Source: Acidobacteriota bacterium (GTDB lineage Bacteria; Acidobacteriota; Terriglobia; Acidiferrales; UBA7541). Taken from it: DNA of 64,000 nucleotides. Of the stretch, positions 45,190 to 52,969 are shown piece after piece. Position numbers and translations under genes: made by a program. The stretch lies in contig JABCZR010000010.1 in the NCBI GenBank assembly GCA_013289585.1, positions 1-64,000 on the forward strand, given 5' to 3'. The notes below the pieces were generated by a model. That model did no database searches. It was given only the letters and a program-made list of their open reading frames with translations, and was not told the DNA's origin. Position 1 is the first letter of the stretch. Every line of letters starts with the position of its first letter.

Positions 45190-45247
45190 AACTAACAAAA
45201 GAAAAAGTGAGCCGGGGGCTTCGCTGAGGGGCCAAGGCACCCCGGCT
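45190..45247 (-). terminator. Rho-independent terminator of the PilZ gene
   Basis: On the minus strand, AGCCGGGG (45247-45240) pairs with CCCCGGCT (45217-45210) as an 8-bp GC-rich stem. It is immediately followed by TCACTTTTTCTTTTGTTAG, a strong U-tract. It lies about 75 bp past the PilZ stop. In the plus direction the A-rich side comes first, so termination of the converging glycosyltransferase transcript is less certain. Confidence 0.7.
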
Positions 45248-45319
45248 TATCCTGCCCGCCTCCGCAGTGAGCGAGCAAGAAACTCGTCAGAGGAAAACTC
45301 AAGTTTGCACTTCGCGAAT

Positions 45320-45652
45320 CTACTTTTCTTCGTCGCCGCGCAAGAACTCGTAGCGCTCGATGGCAGCAACTACGCCGACGGCGCCTTCATCGCGCGACTC
45401 GGTGCGCTGGACGCGGCCGAGGCAGCGTACGCGGACAGGGCCTGCCAGGGTGATCTCGTTCGGCAGGGTCAGAAGAATTTCAACAGGTGAGCCTTCCTTT
45501 ACGTCTTTTTGCAGGAAGAAGTAGACACCGCGGGAGCTGACATCCCGGGACTCGGTGCTGGTCTCACCAACCGCAGCTCCCGTAGTCCAACGGACGGTGA
45601 GCGGCAGCCGCATGGAAAAGCGCTGTGTGGTGCGGCGTTCGGAGCCAGTCAA
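45320..45652 (-). CDS. PilZ domain protein
   Basis: 110 residues consisting of a PilZ fold: ERRTTQRFSMRLPLTVRW, then SRDVSSRGVYFFLQKDVKEGSPVEILLTLP and RVRCLGRVQRTE. The canonical RxxxR plus D/NxSxxG c-di-GMP motifs appear as QRFSMRLP and DVSSRG, so c-di-GMP binding is plausible. I place the start at a TTG (45650-45652), preceded at ideal distance by AGGAGG (45659-45664). The open frame to 46045 has no PilZ-like content. Stand-alone PilZ proteins adjust motility or polysaccharide export. Confidence 0.78.
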   Translation of the reverse strand: MTGSERRTTQRFSMRLPLTVRWTTGAAVGETSTESRDVSSRGVYFFLQKDVKEGSPVEILLTLPNEITLAGPVRVRCLGRVQRTESRDEGAVGVVAAIERYEFLRGDEEK

Positions 45653-46115
45653 GGAAGTCCTCCTAGTCGAAGAGAGAGTGTATCCGGGAGAGGCCCAGGG
45701 AACAATAGGACTCCGGGTACAAAATCGATTCAATTTAGCGAAGTACCGATGTACTAGGACGTCTGTGGAAAACGTGGCCCGTGGGTCATGATCTGTGACC
45801 CAGTGATGCCCGCAGTTCGGGCGGAGTTGGTCGTCGAAAGGCCGGGCCTCCACCCCCTGTTTCTTGTAAATGTTGAAAGTAAAGGACTTAGAGATTGCGT
45901 AAGTCTTTTGTTTGCAATACATAGAGGTTAGTTGCACAGGTGTTGCCGCTAAAGGACTTACGAAGGCGAAGTGTTGGCGAGAGAGTAACTGGCTAGGGCG
46001 GGAAGACTTTGAAGGAGCTAAAAGGACTGCCTCGCGGGCGGGCATGGCGGCGGGTACGGAAGAGGTGTGGCGAATACATCCACCATTATTACATATCGGT
46101 ATACTTAGTCAAGGA
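45653..46115. other. Gene-free stretch with hairpin repeats
   Basis: No gene is supported in about 460 bp. AAAGGACTTA (45881-45890) forms a hairpin with TAAGTCTTTT (45900-45909). The same AAAGGACTTA recurs at about 45951-45960 and part of it (AAAAGGACT) near 46020. The hairpin could terminate transcription to the right. Low coding signal and decayed neighbours suggest an old insertion scar. Confidence 0.4.
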
Positions 46116-46420
46116 TTACTTTAAGTGGTTTGGATGGAGGGGGATAACCCTTCGAGGCTGCGGGTAAACAGGTGTCTGAATCAATTTGGAATGGGAAAAG
46201 TCAAAGGCCCCAGGTGCAAAACCGGCACCTGGGGCACCCTGCAGCGTCACGCTGGTCATGCGGTTCTCATAGTCCCAGGCATAGCTTGTGGTGTTCGACC
46301 CAACCACCTTGGTCAGCGTATTTCCGTTGTAGTCGTATGTGTAATTCACGTGGTGGTATCAGGATAGAACTTCTGCGTCAGCCGATTCAACTGGTCGTAA
46401 GTGTAGGTGAATCTCATAGG
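46116..46420 (-). pseudogene. RHS/YD-repeat protein remnant (frameshifted)
   Basis: Read on the minus strand, 46415-46350 encodes FTYTYDQLNRLTQKFYPDT, and the next frame continues YTYDYNGNTLTKVVGSNTTSYAWDYENRMTSVTLQG. These are YD repeats of RHS-family proteins (polymorphic toxin or cell-surface scaffolds). The two parts are offset by one base at ACCACCACGTGAATTAC, where one missing G (ACGGTGAAT) would fuse them. After the repeat the frame ends in 40 residues of unrelated sequence. No RHS core or toxin tip remains, so this is a fossil. Confidence 0.75.
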
Positions 46421-46736
46421 ACTTGCCGCGATGCACGAGGCACCCAGCCAACCGCTATTGACTTCATTTCTAACGAATTATTCTGAAACCGGCAAATTGA
46501 AAGGCGGTTTTTTGTATAATTGGCAGAATGTACTCGATTTCCAAAAGTGTGCAAAATTGAACAGGCAAATATTACCGAGCGTTCTAGGATTCACGGCCTG
46601 TGGCCGGAAACACGAAAATGGCGCACCCCAATTAGATCGAGAAGCGCCACAAACAGGGGGGAGAGGACCCGAGCCGGTTTTTTTAAGGTATTCTTACCCA
46701 GTCGTACGCGGACAAAGTGAGAATGGAAAGGTGGAG
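46421..46736. other. Gene-free stretch upstream of the leader-like ORF
   Basis: About 316 bp between the RHS remnant and the small ORF at 46737. An in-frame extension to 46407 exists but has no coding features. The promoter of the RiPP-like cluster should lie here. I see the ribosome site AAAGGTGGAG at 46727-46736 and no terminator. Confidence 0.35.
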
Positions 46737-46814
46737 ATGAGCTTAAAGCCGTATATCAAGCCGAAACTGAGGTTTTTGGGCCTCCTGAGGCTGCTTACCA
46801 AGCTTAGCTTCTGA
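46737..46814 (+). CDS. Putative RiPP (lasso-type) leader peptide ORF, core missing or minimal
   Basis: A 25-residue ORF whose residues 6-21 read YIKPKLRFLGLLRLLT. This matches the lasso-peptide leader signature YxxPxLxxxGxxxxxT at every fixed position: Tyr6, Pro9, Leu11, Gly15, Thr21. In known precursors the Thr is two residues before the core, so the core here would be only about three residues (LSF) before TGA. The ribosome site AAAGGTGGAG abuts the ATG. It lies about 200 bp ahead of PqqD-like, lasso-B2, kinase and nucleotidyltransferase genes. A truncated precursor, or a leader-only peptide, is possible. Length alone gives weak statistics. Confidence 0.5.
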   Translation: MSLKPYIKPKLRFLGLLRLLTKLSF

Positions 46815-47020: not shown

Positions 47021-47356
47021 ATGAAAGAGAACATAAACTTTACTAGCTGCCCCATACGACAGGAGCAGATCATCGTCCAGAAGGGGGCGCAGGAAGTACT
47101 TCTCTTCAATATGGATGACGGGAGCTATTACGCGCTGAACGAAGTAGGAAACAGAATTTGGGAGCTCTGCGACGGAGCGCATGGAATCGCGGAGATGGCT
47201 TGCATGCTGGCGAAGGAATATGGGGCCCCCACCGAAGTTATCGAGACGGACATTCTGGAACTGCTCGATGAACTACGAAGCAAGAATCTTATTGTGGAGT
47301 GCAGCGGTGATCGTATGAGTTCCGAAGCCGGTGACGCCGCTCCGGGATCTCCATAG
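47021..47356 (+). CDS. PqqD-like peptide-recognition protein (RRE)
   Basis: 111 residues. The PqqD fold is seen in EVLLFNMDDGSYYALNEVGNRIWELCDG followed by a helix and ELLDELRSKNLI. Such RiPP recognition elements bind the leader peptide and hand it to modifying enzymes; in split lasso systems this is the B1 protein. A short low-complexity tail follows. The gene begins the run PqqD-like, B2, kinase, nucleotidyltransferase, with 187 bp before B2. Confidence 0.85.
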   Translation: MKENINFTSCPIRQEQIIVQKGAQEVLLFNMDDGSYYALNEVGNRIWELCDGAHGIAEMACMLAKEYGAPTEVIETDILELLDELRSKNLIVECSGDRMSSEAGDAAPGSP

Positions 47357-47543
47357 ACGATGGCACGCGATTCGAATTGTTCCCCTTATTCGGGTGGGCC
47401 GCTGCACACTCCATCGACAGGCTTTCGGCGCTAAAAGGGGTCCGATTGCGCCTAGATAAGTGCCCCGCGGCTTTTCAGACTTTCAGGGGCCCCGGAACGA
47501 TTTCTGCTAATCCTCGTCGAGAAACTGAGCGCGTAGGGCAGGC

Positions 47544-48005
47544 ATGAGCAAACGGTCCATTCCCGATGTTTTTCTCTTCTTTCAGGTATTGCTCTTTGCC
47601 GCCGCCGTTCCCTTCCTCCTTCGGCTAAAACTATCGCGAGTGGAAACTCTGCTGGAGCCGAGAACTCCATCGCTGCGGGGCGGAGATCGAGTTGAGCAGA
47701 TTACCGAATACGTGGAGAAGGCAATCCGTGCGGGCCGCCCCCTGGTGCGCCCGGGATGTCTCACTCGAGGGGTCACGCGATATTATTTTTTTCGCCGGGA
47801 CGGGCTGGACGTGTCCCTGTGTTTCGGCATGGGCCAAATTAAAGGAGAGTTTGTCGGCCATTGCTGGTTGGTCAGAGACGGAGAGCCCTTTATGGAAACC
47901 CGGGATCCGCGACCTCTGTATGCGGAGATGTACCGCATTTCAGGAACTGCCCGCCACAGCATGGTTCCCTCCGGGAAATCTGAACTGGAGCAATCAAGAT
48001 CGTGA
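47544..48005 (+). CDS. Lasso-peptide biosynthesis B2-type (transglutaminase-like) protease
   Basis: 153 residues. An N-terminal hydrophobic helix (PDVFLFFQVLLFAAAVPFLL) is followed by a Transglut_core3 domain with Cys72 (RPGCLTRGVTRYYFFRRDGL), His106 (GHCWLVRDGEP) and an acidic residue after it (Asp112 or Glu114). In lasso systems this enzyme removes the leader at the Thr-2 position. The stop overlaps the next gene start (GTGA). No asparagine-synthetase-like lasso cyclase lies nearby. Confidence 0.83.
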   Translation: MSKRSIPDVFLFFQVLLFAAAVPFLLRLKLSRVETLLEPRTPSLRGGDRVEQITEYVEKAIRAGRPLVRPGCLTRGVTRYYFFRRDGLDVSLCFGMGQIKGEFVGHCWLVRDGEPFMETRDPRPLYAEMYRISGTARHSMVPSGKSELEQSRS

Positions 48006-48985
48006 GCGATAGCCAGGGCACGCAGACCTACGGTTTCCACGGCTTGAATCTCAGGGTGTCGTCCTCGGCCGCAATTGCAAGCTGCCTCGATTCCAGATTC
48101 CAAATGCTTCCCTCGAACGGAGAGGGCGGCGAGACTATTTTTTTCGATTTCGAGTCCGTTTCAAGTACGAAAGAACACCGCTTCGGGAGACCGGCCGGGC
48201 GGGCCAAGCCCTTTTATCAACTGGAGAGCGGCGATGCCAGCTACTTCGATGCCGAAGACCAACTCTACCTTTCTTACGAGGATCGCGTGCGCGTGTTGTG
48301 CAGCCCCGGCTCCGGCTCGGCGTGGTTCTCGGTGGTCGAGCCGGAGATTGAAAACCTGTGGCTTGCCTCCCATCTTCTGTTCACAATATGCCTGATTGAA
48401 ATATTAAAGCGCCGCGGGCTGTATAGCCTGCACGCTGGAGGCTTCAGCGCAAATGGCAAGTGCATTTTGATTCCGGGCACAAGCGGGGCAGGCAAATCCA
48501 CGCTAACGGTTGCTTCGCTCAGAGCACATTTTGACTACATGAGCGATGACATGGTCTTTCTAGTTGACCGGCCGTATGGGTTCCGGGTCCTGGCATTTCC
48601 TGAGGCGGTGGATGTCAGTGATCAGACTGCCGGCTTCTTTCCGGAGCTGAGTTTTCTGTTGCGCGCCCCCAAACGTCTCGGGTGGCGGAAGCAGCAAATC
48701 CACCCGACCCAGGTTTATGGCGCGAAAGTAGCCCCGGAAGCTCGGACTGCAGCGGTTGTGATTCCTCGCATCTCGAAGGCTGAAACCAGCGTGGTCACGA
48801 GGATGGATCCAGACGAAGCGCTGTTGGAAATGGTTCCCAATGTGTTGCTCACGGAGGCGAACTCGTGCCGGGCACATTTGGATGCCCTGAGTGAACTCGT
48901 GACGTCTACGCCCTGCTATCGCCTGGAGACGGGACGTGACTTTGATCGGGTCTCCCTTCAATTTCGGGAGCTGCTGGAGTCATGA
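48002..48985 (+). CDS. HprK-like peptide/protein kinase of RiPP clusters
   Basis: 327 residues. A central P-loop GTSGAGKST (159-167) and upstream LHAGGF are like HPr kinase C-terminal domains. SDDMVFL (181-187) supplies the acidic residues. It lacks the N-terminal HprK regulator domain. Members in lasso clusters (paeninodin type) phosphorylate the C-terminal Ser of the precursor. Others of this type occur with PqqD/B2 pairs without a known substrate. A GTG start overlaps B2 by four bases, and its stop overlaps the next ATG. Confidence 0.82.
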   Translation: MSDSQGTQTYGFHGLNLRVSSSAAIASCLDSRFQMLPSNGEGGETIFFDFESVSSTKEHRFGRPAGRAKPFYQLESGDASYFDAEDQLYLSYEDRVRVLCSPGSGSAWFSVVEPEIENLWLASHLLFTICLIEILKRRGLYSLHAGGFSANGKCILIPGTSGAGKSTLTVASLRAHFDYMSDDMVFLVDRPYGFRVLAFPEAVDVSDQTAGFFPELSFLLRAPKRLGWRKQQIHPTQVYGAKVAPEARTAAVVIPRISKAETSVVTRMDPDEALLEMVPNVLLTEANSCRAHLDALSELVTSTPCYRLETGRDFDRVSLQFRELLES

Positions 48986-50205
48986 TCCGTAACGAACTCA
49001 TGCTCGAACAGACTCCGCAGCTCCGAACGGCGGGGACTAGCCCAGAGGTGGAACTGCTTCTCTCTTGTGCCCGCACGCGGACCAACCCGGAAATATCGCA
49101 GCGAATCCGAGAGGCCGCTCAGAAGAAAATTGACTGGGTCCAATTCATTCGACTGGCGCTCGATCACGACGCGCTATCGCTCTCCTATTGCAACCTTCAC
49201 CGGGTCTGCCCGGATATTGTGCCGGGCGGTGTCCTTGAGCCGCTACGCGTGCGCCACGAAGCGGGGGTTGCGGAGCGCCGGCGACTCGCCGAGGAATTGG
49301 TGGGCATAGTCGGCTTCTTCGATACGCAGGGTATTCCTGCAGTGCCGTATAAGGGCCCCGCACTCGCCGTCAGACTCTATGGCGATTTGTCGCTTCGCGG
49401 GTTTAGCGATCTGGACGTCGTGATTTGTGAACGGGATGCCCTGCGGGCTCGGCAGCTCCTCATCGACCGGGGTTACATGCCTACCGAGAGGGTAGAAAAC
49501 GGGAAACTCAAAGAATACTTGCGCAAGCACCATGAAATGCCGTTTTGTCGCGTGGATGGAAAGGTACATTTGGATCTGCACTGGCGATACACCAGTAGAT
49601 CAACGTGTCTTGCGGGAGATCCTGAGCGGTTCCACCGCGAGCTAGAGACGGTTTCCATGGCGGGAAAAAAAGTGCGAAGTTTGCGGCTGGAAACCTACCT
49701 GCTGGTCCTCTCCATGCATGCTGCTAAGCACAAGTGGTCACAACTAAAGTTAATCTGCGACATCGCCGAGATCCTTGCGGCTCCTGATTTAGACTGGGGC
49801 TACGTGCTGCACGAAGCGCGCGATCTGGGCCTGAGGCGTGCCCTGGGGACTTCTCTTCTCCTAGCGCAGGGTTTGCTTGGGGCGGGAGTGCCCCCGAGAC
49901 TCGCTCAGGAGCTGAAAATCGATCGCACTGCGAAAGCCTTGGCTACGCAGGCATGTACCAGCCTTTTCGAGGAGACTGGCCAAAGCTGGCGTGCGGAACC
50001 CGACTATACTTTTGAGCTTGCGCTCCGTGAGCGCTTTCGGGACCGACTGAAAATCTTTCTCCGGTATTTCTTCCCTAAGCTTAAGCCGAATGAACGTGAC
50101 CGAGCGTTTTTGCCGCTGCCGGGCGCTCTCTCCGTGGGATATTACGTCGTTCGGCCGCTTCGATTGGCTCTAAAGAAAATGGGTAGGACAACCCCTCTTC
50201 ACTAG
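48982..50205 (+). CDS. Nucleotidyltransferase (NTP_transf_5 family)
   Basis: 407 residues. The motif YKGPALAVRLYGDLSLRGFSDLDVVI has the G-S-x-D-x-D-like metal site (SDLDVVI). VHLDLHWRY follows as the third acidic/His element. The family usually accompanies lasso-type PqqD/B2/kinase genes and may nucleotidylate a peptide or lipid target; the reaction is unproven. A start overlap of four bases with the kinase shows a coupled operon. The gene ends about 130 bp before a strong bidirectional hairpin. Confidence 0.83.
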   Translation: MIRNELMLEQTPQLRTAGTSPEVELLLSCARTRTNPEISQRIREAAQKKIDWVQFIRLALDHDALSLSYCNLHRVCPDIVPGGVLEPLRVRHEAGVAERRRLAEELVGIVGFFDTQGIPAVPYKGPALAVRLYGDLSLRGFSDLDVVICERDALRARQLLIDRGYMPTERVENGKLKEYLRKHHEMPFCRVDGKVHLDLHWRYTSRSTCLAGDPERFHRELETVSMAGKKVRSLRLETYLLVLSMHAAKHKWSQLKLICDIAEILAAPDLDWGYVLHEARDLGLRRALGTSLLLAQGLLGAGVPPRLAQELKIDRTAKALATQACTSLFEETGQSWRAEPDYTFELALRERFRDRLKIFLRYFFPKLKPNERDRAFLPLPGALSVGYYVVRPLRLALKKMGRTTPLH

Positions 50206-50331: not shown

Positions 50332-50380
50332 GCCCGGGTTCGCTCCTCCACCTGAGGAGTGTGAAGCGCGAACCCGGCCC
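50332..50380. terminator. Bidirectional hairpin between convergent genes
   Basis: CCGGGTTCGC (50334-50343) and GCGAACCCGG (50368-50377) form a perfect 10-bp stem. Inside it, CTCCTC and GAGGAG (about 50344-50360) add a second stem. It lies between the plus-strand nucleotidyltransferase and the minus-strand DUF3494 gene (stop at 50390), the expected place for a shared terminator. There is no long T-run on either side. Confidence 0.5.
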
Positions 50381-50389
50381 GGCAGACGA

Positions 50390-52003
50390 TTACTTCGGCC
50401 CGTCGGAGATGGTCAAATCGACGGAACTTCCCGAGTCACCGAAAACGGCAACGGTAACTTTGTTGGTTCCGTGGAACAAAGCGGATGAGATATCGAGCTT
50501 CTTGGTTTCCCCATCGGAAAGCTTCGTTCTGAACTGCCTATGATTTACGGTAATCACGAGCGATTCCACACCGGGAGTACTGTTTTGAAGGAGCACCATC
50601 CCCTCTGTATGACCGATGCCGTCGAAGGCTGCCATCTCCCAATGATCGAAGTCGAATTTTTCAACATGGTGGAACTTAGAACCAGGGCCCACGGCGGGAA
50701 TTGTGATGGTTGCAAAGACCGGATCAAATACAGTTCTATGCCCACATAGATCTGTAGCAGTCACTTCCACAACGGCCGATGCCGCCTGATTGATCTTCGT
50801 AGCGGTTACGCCCAGAGCCAGGGTCGTTCCGTTGTCAAACGAGGGGATGGGGACGGTAGCATTCGTGGTCGGAGGAGTATCGACGAACACGAAAATCAAT
50901 CCACCTGGAGACTGAACCGAGAGGACGACCTGCTTAGGCGGACCTGCTACCACATTCACGAGAGCGATCGTAGGGGACGGGGCCGTCGAACAGAACGCTC
51001 CTGAGGTCGAACCCGAACACGTCGCAAAAGCCGTGTTCGAGAGAATCGTTCCGCCGTTTACTTTGGCGACGATGGAATCTCCGGCCGAGGCCGTTAACGA
51101 AGGCGCTCTGATTATGAAAGTTGCAGTCCCGGACCCATCCGTGATAGCGGTTCCGCTCTGGCCAGCGTCCGGTCCAGTGACTGTAAAAGTTACGGTCGTA
51201 CCCACGACGGGCAGTCCGTTCGCCAAGACAACCGCGGTTTTGGTGATGGAAGAGCTGGCGGAACCGCATATAATCGCGGAGTTTACAGGGGAGAGCACGA
51301 CAGTCGGCGAGCTGGACGACCCCGAACATCCGCCGATTATGGTCTCCTTACCGCTGATCGTGACCGTACCGTTTCTGGCCAGAGCCCGGCCCGTCAGGGT
51401 GCCGCCATTCAGCGTGATGCTCGCTAGCGCCATGATATTTCCCGCAAAGCTGGTGCCCGTCTGGATGGTCGCGGAGGAGCCTACCTGCCAGAACACATTG
51501 CAGGGCGATGCGCCGCCGGCAAAAACTACGCTAGCACCGGTGGCAGTTGTCAAAGTGCTGCCAATCTGGAATATCCACACGTCGGTAGAGCTACCGGTCA
51601 GCGTCAAGGTTCCGTTCAGCTGCGCCGCCGTCGAAAAGCAGTAAACTCCCGGGCCCAAGTTCATATTGGTCCCGGTGCCCAGGGCGCCAGTAAGCGGCGT
51701 ACACGACGGCCTGCCGGCTGCGTCAAGGTACGCGGCAGTTAGGTCCGTCTTCGCTGTTGTCACGACGGCGCTCCCCGCCGTGTACAACGTGCCACCGGTG
51801 ACCTGGCTTGCCAAAAGTCCCGTGACCGAGGTTGTGGGAGCACTTCCAACACTACGGACAATCGTGGTTCCGGCGTCAGCGCTCGTGATGCCGCCACCGG
51901 CCAGCACCGCAAAGTTGGCCGCTGAATTCAGGTTAGGGGCTTGGGCATAGGCATTTGATCCCAGCGCCAGGAAAACCAATAAACAAGTGCCACGGAATTT
52001 CAT
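50390..52003 (-). CDS. DUF3494 (ice-binding-like) secreted protein
   Basis: 537 residues, signal peptide (MKFRGTCLLVFLALGSNAYAQ). DUF3494 spans about 25-235: NLNSAANFAVLAGGGITSADAGTTIV, LNGTLTLTGSSTDVWIFQIGSTLTT and GTLTGRALARNGTVTISGKETI. This beta-helix family includes ice-binding proteins and surface adhesins. A bacterial Ig-like domain follows (about 240-330, VGTTVTFTVTGPDAGQSGTAITDGSG) and then unassigned beta segments with no anchor. It probably is a released or surface-bound adhesion or ice-binding protein. Monocistronic, minus strand. Confidence 0.85.
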   Translation of the reverse strand: MKFRGTCLLVFLALGSNAYAQAPNLNSAANFAVLAGGGITSADAGTTIVRSVGSAPTTSVTGLLASQVTGGTLYTAGSAVVTTAKTDLTAAYLDAAGRPSCTPLTGALGTGTNMNLGPGVYCFSTAAQLNGTLTLTGSSTDVWIFQIGSTLTTATGASVVFAGGASPCNVFWQVGSSATIQTGTSFAGNIMALASITLNGGTLTGRALARNGTVTISGKETIIGGCSGSSSSPTVVLSPVNSAIICGSASSSITKTAVVLANGLPVVGTTVTFTVTGPDAGQSGTAITDGSGTATFIIRAPSLTASAGDSIVAKVNGGTILSNTAFATCSGSTSGAFCSTAPSPTIALVNVVAGPPKQVVLSVQSPGGLIFVFVDTPPTTNATVPIPSFDNGTTLALGVTATKINQAASAVVEVTATDLCGHRTVFDPVFATITIPAVGPGSKFHHVEKFDFDHWEMAAFDGIGHTEGMVLLQNSTPGVESLVITVNHRQFRTKLSDGETKKLDISSALFHGTNKVTVAVFGDSGSSVDLTISDGPK

Positions 52004-52294
52004 ACGTTTCTCCAGCAGCTTTCGCAGTGTATTTCCAGGATTAGGAAGTTCTTGACGGCGATAGCATGAGGTGTCAATTCGAAACAGTCTGTTCCATATT
52101 GGACATCATGGGGCCTATTCGTGCAGGTTGAGAGTAATAGTCCTTAGATAGAGTAGAGAATTCGATCTCATTACAAATTCCTCGAATGAGGCCTCCGACC
52201 AGTCCAAGTGTGGCTGGGGAACGGCAAAAGCAGGCAGCCGACCAATGAAGAGTTGGTGAGGTAGATTGAAAACCAGCGACTTAACGAGTGTTGA

Positions 52295-52969
52295 CTACGA
52301 CTGATCGATCAGGCGGTGGTGAATAGCGTAGAGCGCCAATTCGAGGCGGTCGGAGACGCCGAGTTTGTCGAAGATGTTGTGGAGATGATTTTTTACGGTT
52401 TGTTCGGAGATGAAAAGCTTCTCGCCGATTTCCTTGTTGCGGAAGCCCTGGGCAACGAGCTGGACGATTTCTTTTTCGCGGTCGCTGAGCAGGGGCTTTT
52501 CGCGGCGTGGGCCTGATTCGGCTGATTTTGAAAACGCTTTCATGACTTCGGCGGTCATGCGGTTATCGAGCCAGATTTCACCGGCATGTACGCGATGAAT
52601 ACTTTTGACGAGAAGATCGGTGGCGGACTGCTTCAGCACCACGCCGCGAGCGCCAAGGCGCATGGCGCGAACTACGTCGCGATCATCTTCAGCGGCAGTG
52701 AGAACAACGACGCGCGTGGGCAATGTATCGAAATTGACTTCCTCGAGCACGGCGAGGCCGTCTTTATCAGGCATGCGGAGATCGAGGAGAAGAATATCGG
52801 GCTTGAGCTTGGCGAGAAGCTTGATGCACTCGGCGCCGTTCTGAGCTTCGCCGACGATGGTGATGTCCTCATCGGAATCGAGGAGCTTGCGAAGACCATC
52901 GCGAAAGATGGCGTGATCATCGGCTAGTAGTACCCGTATCTGCTGTTTTGCTGTCTTGGCCATATTCAT
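52295..52969 (-). CDS. NarL/FixJ-family response regulator
   Basis: 224 residues. REC domain with phospho-acceptor Asp in PDILLLDLRMPDKDG and conserved Thr/Lys (VVLTAAEDD; GVVLKQSA), then a LuxR-type HTH (LSDREKEIVQLVAQGFRNKEIGEKLFISEQTVKNHLHNIF, quoted here only as its start and TVKNHL). Follows its kinase by 33 bp on the same strand. An alternative ATG is two codons in. Confidence 0.92.
   Translation of the reverse strand: MNMAKTAKQQIRVLLADDHAIFRDGLRKLLDSDEDITIVGEAQNGAECIKLLAKLKPDILLLDLRMPDKDGLAVLEEVNFDTLPTRVVVLTAAEDDRDVVRAMRLGARGVVLKQSATDLLVKSIHRVHAGEIWLDNRMTAEVMKAFSKSAESGPRREKPLLSDREKEIVQLVAQGFRNKEIGEKLFISEQTVKNHLHNIFDKLGVSDRLELALYAIHHRLIDQS

Follow-up and report, generated by a model that had tools for sequence, protein, structure and literature searches.

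Introduction

Systems in which a kinase tailors a ribosomally synthesised and post-translationally modified peptide (RiPP) have been described both with and without a ring-forming enzyme. In the linear polyphosphorylated peptide (LPP) system of Bacillota (PMC13381572), a discrete RiPP recognition element (RRE), an HprK-like kinase and a nucleoside triphosphate (NTP) transferase occur without a cyclase; core Ser3 is phosphorylated and the leader is cut behind Thr(-1), so that the modified Ser lies at Thr+3. The same source reports that LPP and paeninodin clusters are often found near capsular polysaccharide loci. Among lasso peptides, two further sources describe the kinase BsfK, which acts on core Ser3 with the assistance of an RRE and in which His, Walker-loop and Asp-Asp residues matter (PMC10368454), and PsmN, which has been linked to a hexose on phosphoserine (PMC9266682). 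Here we describe a 64-kb stretch of Acidobacteriota DNA (positions 1 to 64,000 of contig JABCZR010000010.1, hereafter the window) in which a 25-residue open reading frame (ORF), MSLKPYIKPKLRFLGLLRLLTKLSF, at 46737–46814 on the forward strand, precedes genes for a PqqD-type RRE (B1), a B2 leader peptidase, an HprK-like kinase and a nucleotidyltransferase (NTase). At a probability of roughly one half, we read this ORF as the precursor of a lasso-related RiPP system that uses a kinase and no cyclase; the best reading is that the system is closest to LPP, yet with a B2 cysteine protease.

The two systems have in common a cyclase-free set of discrete RRE, HprK-like kinase and NTP transferase, a YxxP leader, variable cores, and a Ser three residues behind the leader Thr, as in TKLS of the window. 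LPP differs in its SpI-like peptidase, its MsbA-like transporter and its precursors of 35–200 residues, and is described as confined to Bacillota, whereas the set described here has a B2 cysteine protease, no transporter and precursors of 23–39 residues, and belongs to Acidobacteriota. Only YxxPxL and TxxS are held in common with the LPP leader motif YxxPxVLxHQxIxFETxxS, and no SpI-like leader peptidase occurs among the genes at 47021–50205 (B2 stands there instead), no genome-wide search for SpI having been made. The Bsf cluster (PMC10368454) resembles the window in its B1, B2, kinase and NTase, in the modified Ser near the core start and in its kinase motif, but has a cyclase, an ABC transporter and an Ile(-2) leader. 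Paeninodin and pseudomycoidin (PMC9266682) share the kinase tailoring (and, in pseudomycoidin, an NTase) but are cyclised and modified on a C-terminal Ser. Among the papers listed in searches of a partial literature, none described a comparable B1-B2 system without a cyclase in Acidobacteriota. Other cyclase-free sets may nevertheless be known to specialists, because the discrete lasso RRE model is the best model for almost 8,000 proteins, of which only about 4,000 co-occur with a leader peptidase and a cyclase (PMC7470986).

A lasso-type leader with a predicted three-residue core

The window peptide carries Tyr6, Pro9, Leu11, Gly15 and Thr21 in the exact spacing YxxPxLxxxGxxxxxT, and its stop codon follows four residues past Thr21. 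A Shine-Dalgarno-like sequence, GGAAAGGTGGAG, can be read at 46725–46736 (+), immediately 5' of the ATG, and GGAAAGGTGGA also stands before the start of the corresponding peptide in a second genome of the same genus (G014, locus L032). The full leader motif is found once when all six frames of the window are read, and not once in 60 sequences of 64 kb simulated with a first-order Markov model of the same dinucleotide make-up. The 25 residues match no Pfam or NCBIfam model, and a leader profile recovers them at 2.3e-13. The peptide has the lasso-type YxxPxL leader, with Thr predicted at -2, and a split into MSLKPYIKPKLRFLGLLRLLTK and LSF would leave a core (FSF in L032) below the 7–9 residue ring with Asp/Glu, plus tail, of a lasso peptide. 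An original prediction made from the DNA letters had recognised the leader spacing, the ribosome site, the PqqD-like and B2 genes downstream and a remainder after Thr21 too short for a lasso ring, all of which hold.

It had also suggested that a single indel might have removed a longer core. The +1 frame behind TK is indeed open for 80 codons, as that suggestion noted, while the other shifted frame closes at once. L032 encodes MKKYSKPSLRCLGLLRLVTKFSF, of 23 residues, in front of the same enzymes; both peptides end in TK[LF]SF-stop, with the stop at the same codon (TGA in the window, TAA in L032). The +1 frames of the two loci align with a score of 17 against a shuffle mean of 20.9 (454 of 500 shuffles scored at least as high), and the DNA alignment behind the stop has gaps of 4, 1 and 2 bases. 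Since L032 has the same ending and the shifted frames lack similarity, truncation by an indel, whether real or artefactual, was rejected. The flanks are syntenic (window 45202–45993, 50351–52031 and 52295–52500 also match), so the two loci are one inherited locus, in species that differ at about 40% of synonymous sites.

B1 (47021–47356, +) begins 206 bases behind the peptide and matches PF05402 at 2.6e-19; its matches to lasso RRE models, at 3.1e-12 and 2.8e-8, both fall under the model cut-offs, and a solved relative, TbiB1, is matched at 3.6e-7. B2 (47544–48005, +), a transglutaminase-like cysteine protease, matches PF13471 at 5.6e-13 and NF033537 at 2.6e-13, above cut-off; in a B2 alignment its Cys is present in 54 of 54 rows and its His in 53 (one gap), and its Asp column is not common to other B2s. 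The one match of the B2 sequence among solved structures was an engineered protein (E 0.9). The HprK-like kinase (48002–48985, +) matches TIGR04352 at 2.2e-10, under the model cut-off, and the NTase (48982–50205, +) matches PF14907 at 1.6e-53; the B2/kinase and kinase/NTase boundaries are four-base overlaps. Residues H144, G159, G164, K165, S166 and D183 are kept in 13 of 13 aligned kinases, with SDD or TDD in the four kinases of the cyclase-free loci (below), and this motif comprises the residues studied in BsfK. HPr kinase and phosphoenolpyruvate carboxykinase (PEPCK) are related proteins. The kinase sequence matches no solved structure, and its predicted model (mean pLDDT 81.2, from 13 alignment rows) aligns with PEPCK 2pc9_B (Z 16.9, root-mean-square deviation 5.0 over 280 residues, 14% identity); all 50 structure matches listed are PEPCK or its complexes, HPr kinase not being among those listed. 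Ratios of nonsynonymous to synonymous change (dN/dS, simple counting, window against L032) are 0.28 for PqqD, 0.28 for B2, 0.16 for the kinase and 0.33 for the NTase; the enzymes are under purifying selection. For the peptide the value is 0.34, over only 23 codons.

Put together, these genes suggest a short pathway. The PqqD-type RRE would bind the YxxPxL leader, the kinase would phosphorylate the kept Ser just behind it (Ser24, core residue 2), the B2 protease would cut near Thr21-Lys22, and the NTase might then add a nucleotide or sugar to the phosphoserine. No ring would be formed, and the peptide set free would be modified and only three or four residues long, (K)LSF in the window and (K)FSF in L032; both lengths are considered because lasso numbering sets Thr at -2, while LPP is cut behind Thr(-1). 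The kinase-substrate role proposed in the original prediction looks like a good guess. Because relatives keep the ORF beside a protease and a kinase without a ring-forming enzyme, the locus is probably not a broken lasso gene and makes instead a very small phosphorylated peptide, presumably exported. If this is correct, LSF and FSF would be among the shortest conceivable ribosomally templated products, cyclase-free phosphorylated RiPPs would extend beyond Bacillota, and a kinase and NTase would work on a nearly bare leader; KLSF, as a minimal substrate, would make NTase addition to phosphoserine directly testable.

Distribution and further precursors

B2 (PF13471) was present in 33 of 61 genomes. 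Fifty PF13471 places besides that of the window were examined for the four enzymes, some of them on stretches cut off at contig ends. Counting the window, this made 51 loci, of which the window and L032 alone had PqqD, B2, HprK-like kinase and NTase in direct succession. A relaxed leader pattern picked out longer lasso-type precursors (41–54 residues) at 11 other loci; in L055 it matched a stretch of 19 residues that looks like a chance match. Of 399 genomes of the class, 38 matched the window B2 at E 0.001; the strong matches, at 1.2e-49 or better, were those of the window genome, G014, G202 and G316, the next standing at 1.1e-9. The same four were recovered at 1e-20 among 89 genomes of the family, and among 396 genomes drawn evenly from the phylum a B2 profile found only the window genome at 1e-12. 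Loci L117 (G202) and L118 (G316) have the window gene order with leader peptides upstream, so a leader-type peptide precedes the enzymes in all four loci found, which bears out the conservation expected of a genuine precursor; in the window genome, the leader profiles gave no other match at E 0.001 or better that might point to a different one. Glycosyltransferases and an FkbM-type methyltransferase flank L117, and two methyltransferases and a polysaccharide deacetylase flank L118. A pattern scan of genome contigs gave at least three matches (JABCZG010000034.1, PMUS01000060.1 and JASHRI010000121.1, from metagenome-assembled Acidobacteria genomes), a lower bound because two narrow patterns were used; no viral contig searched had a match.

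At E 0.1, a leader profile (A2) found matches in 14 of the 89 genomes of the family. Eleven matches reached 1.1e-6 or better, one each in the window genome and G014, five in G202 and four in G316, and the next best stood at 7.0e-4. Because each locus contributed one peptide to the profile, the first match in each genome is circular; the non-circular part comprises seven further copies and 85 genomes without a strong match, although two of these copies, both neighbours of the G316 enzymes, had been seen before the profile search. Another profile (A3), over the 399 class genomes, recovered those four genomes and, at 4.6e-4, G237, whose peptide resembles in sequence an ordinary longer lasso precursor. 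The nine copies of G202 and G316 include five, four of them from G202 and one from G316, on contigs other than those of the enzymes, a G316 copy about 2 kb past the NTase on the opposite strand, and a likely remnant between the first G316 precursor and PqqD (L118:5589–5666), which lacks TK and any in-frame ATG, GTG or TTG before the leader motif and was dropped, leaving ten of 11 copies for the core counts. Behind TK, G202 encodes LSRCEIWCEVL, FSGCGIETLGRRAECTL, YSICLPIYSR, YSGPTCDIRINEVVVCGKY and LSHPCVPSDCKGAITRD, and G316 encodes CLYSGCPLD, CVYSGQLPE and QTLSGGDPNWCHRVTG.

These cores, of 3–19 residues, are hypervariable. Mean leader identity is 68% over the ten copies and 76% within G202, whereas the mean for G202 cores, counted from residue 3, is 7%. 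Of the ten G202 pairs, eight could be aligned over the leader DNA; in seven of these the similarity breaks off somewhere from 1 base ahead of the final leader codon to 11 bases past it, and in the other it breaks off inside the leader. Each of the eight longer cores has at least one Cys (13 Cys among 108 residues in all). Leu, Phe or Tyr followed by Ser stands right behind TK in all seven precursors of the window genome, G014 and G202. The description of the window peptide as leader-only is therefore not quite right: [LFY]S behind the leader is a kept core start, and longer cores exist elsewhere in the family. In G202 and G316 the same enzymes stand beside a precursor with this type of leader, further hypervariable copies lying elsewhere, and we tentatively suggest, at less than even confidence, a cyclase-free, kinase-modified family of Acidobacteriota in which one RRE-B2-kinase-NTase set serves several precursors of fixed leader and hypervariable core, some of them distant, the smallest of which encode modified LSF and FSF with the acceptor Ser kept. 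If so, the copies in G202 and G316 would be natural variants for the same enzymes. Prochlorosins similarly combine several precursors, kept leaders and hypervariable cores with one enzyme set; their enzymes and leader are different, and copies here are far fewer.

Ring formation and alternative explanations

A search of nine genomes with PF00733 gave no match on any contig that carries one of the four loci, and no lasso-type cyclase (C) in the window genome, where three full-length synthases (267, 278 and 346 bits) and two weak partial matches (27 and 20 bits) were found; lasso-type synthases of other genomes score about 82–132 bits. Two of the full-length synthases adjoin each other among ORFs that by eye resemble glycan genes. 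G014 (C24) and G202 (C65) each have a lasso-type C with its own precursor. In G316 a lasso-type C (C54, L182:6385–8244) is open over 620 codons, and no B1, B2 or precursor was found beside it; the only PF13471 match of G316 is the B2 of its cyclase-free cluster. In quick, unrooted trees made without LPP or Bsf sequences, the four cyclase-free kinases (of 16) and the four B2s (of 54) cluster on long branches with SH-aLRT values of 100 and 99. Recent loss of a cyclase from a local lasso cluster is therefore unsupported, while an old loss may still have occurred, given such trees.

As a separate observation, lasso clusters in this genus look as if split between loci: G014 has a cyclase, precursor and kinase (C24, L152) without B1-B2 and a PqqD-B2 pair elsewhere without a cyclase, and the window genome, without a lasso-type C match, has a PqqD-B2 pair without a cyclase (C23, L057).

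The reading of the ORF as a cyclase-free precursor gains from the ending and gene order common to the window and L032, from the four-gene set with its leader peptide in G202 and G316, from the lack of a PF00733 match on the locus contigs, from enzyme dN/dS of 0.16–0.33 and the kept kinase motif, from [LFY]S behind TK in 7/7 precursors while the cores otherwise diverge, and from the LPP precedent, whose Ser spacing TKLS repeats. Several points weigh against it. The three-residue core is seen in only two genomes, the four-gene set has no transporter gene, and in three of four G316 copies the corresponding [YL]SG stands two residues later. The LPP NTase, LppN, had no effect in a heterologous host (PMC13381572), and the product and every enzyme activity proposed here are predictions from sequence. 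One of the paired window-genome synthases lacks the usual N-terminal Cys and starts MSGICGF, which makes a role in trans for it conceivable. In seven of the eight cores of at least nine residues, position 7 or 9 is Asp or Glu, as in lasso rings, suggesting that other members form rings; within-core shuffles give p 5e-5 for positions 7 or 9 and p 3.5e-4 for positions 7–9 (best of the triplets listed), values that overstate the strength because the copies are related.

The acid positions favour a ring closed in trans for G202 and G316, and the family might make lasso or simple macrolactam peptides through a trans cyclase, the window and L032 forms being derived ones that have lost the ring part. 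The lasso-type C genes of G202 and G316, that of G316 standing apart from B1, B2 and precursor, would fit; yet two acid-bearing long cores end at the acid without a tail, LSF, FSF and YSICLPIYSR contain no acid, and the window genome has no lasso-type C match, so that we consider this account unlikely. That the core simply shrank in a decaying locus whose enzymes are still intact would agree with the longer related precursors and the remnant-like G316 copy, but is quite unlikely with the same ending kept in species some 40% apart at synonymous sites and with enzymes constrained as above. The leader itself, cut or uncut, might be active as a short cationic amphipathic or signal peptide: both short forms have a net charge of +6, against a range of +2 to +5 among the remaining eight precursors, and both have lost the acid before VTK. 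A protease, kinase and NTase held alongside under purifying selection, and a kept RRE motif, make this very unlikely. A chance ORF, for which its shortness and lack of a model match might speak, is scarcely credible, the motif having appeared in 0/60 simulations and the peptide being conserved before the same enzymes in four genomes. Taken as a whole, the original prediction stands in its lasso-type leader, B1-B2 context and short core, and falls in its indel truncation.

Neighbouring features

Upstream of the 25-residue ORF, a block at 46547–46594 (+) is kept in L032 (85.4% identity over 48 bases) and may be a promoter region. Short ORFs at 46116–46417 (-), just upstream, resemble by eye remnants of an RHS/YD-repeat protein; 46116–46349 (-) gave no Pfam match. 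Directly downstream of the set, 50390–52003 (-) encodes an ice-binding-like protein (PF11999, 1.4e-43), in a stretch that also matches L032.
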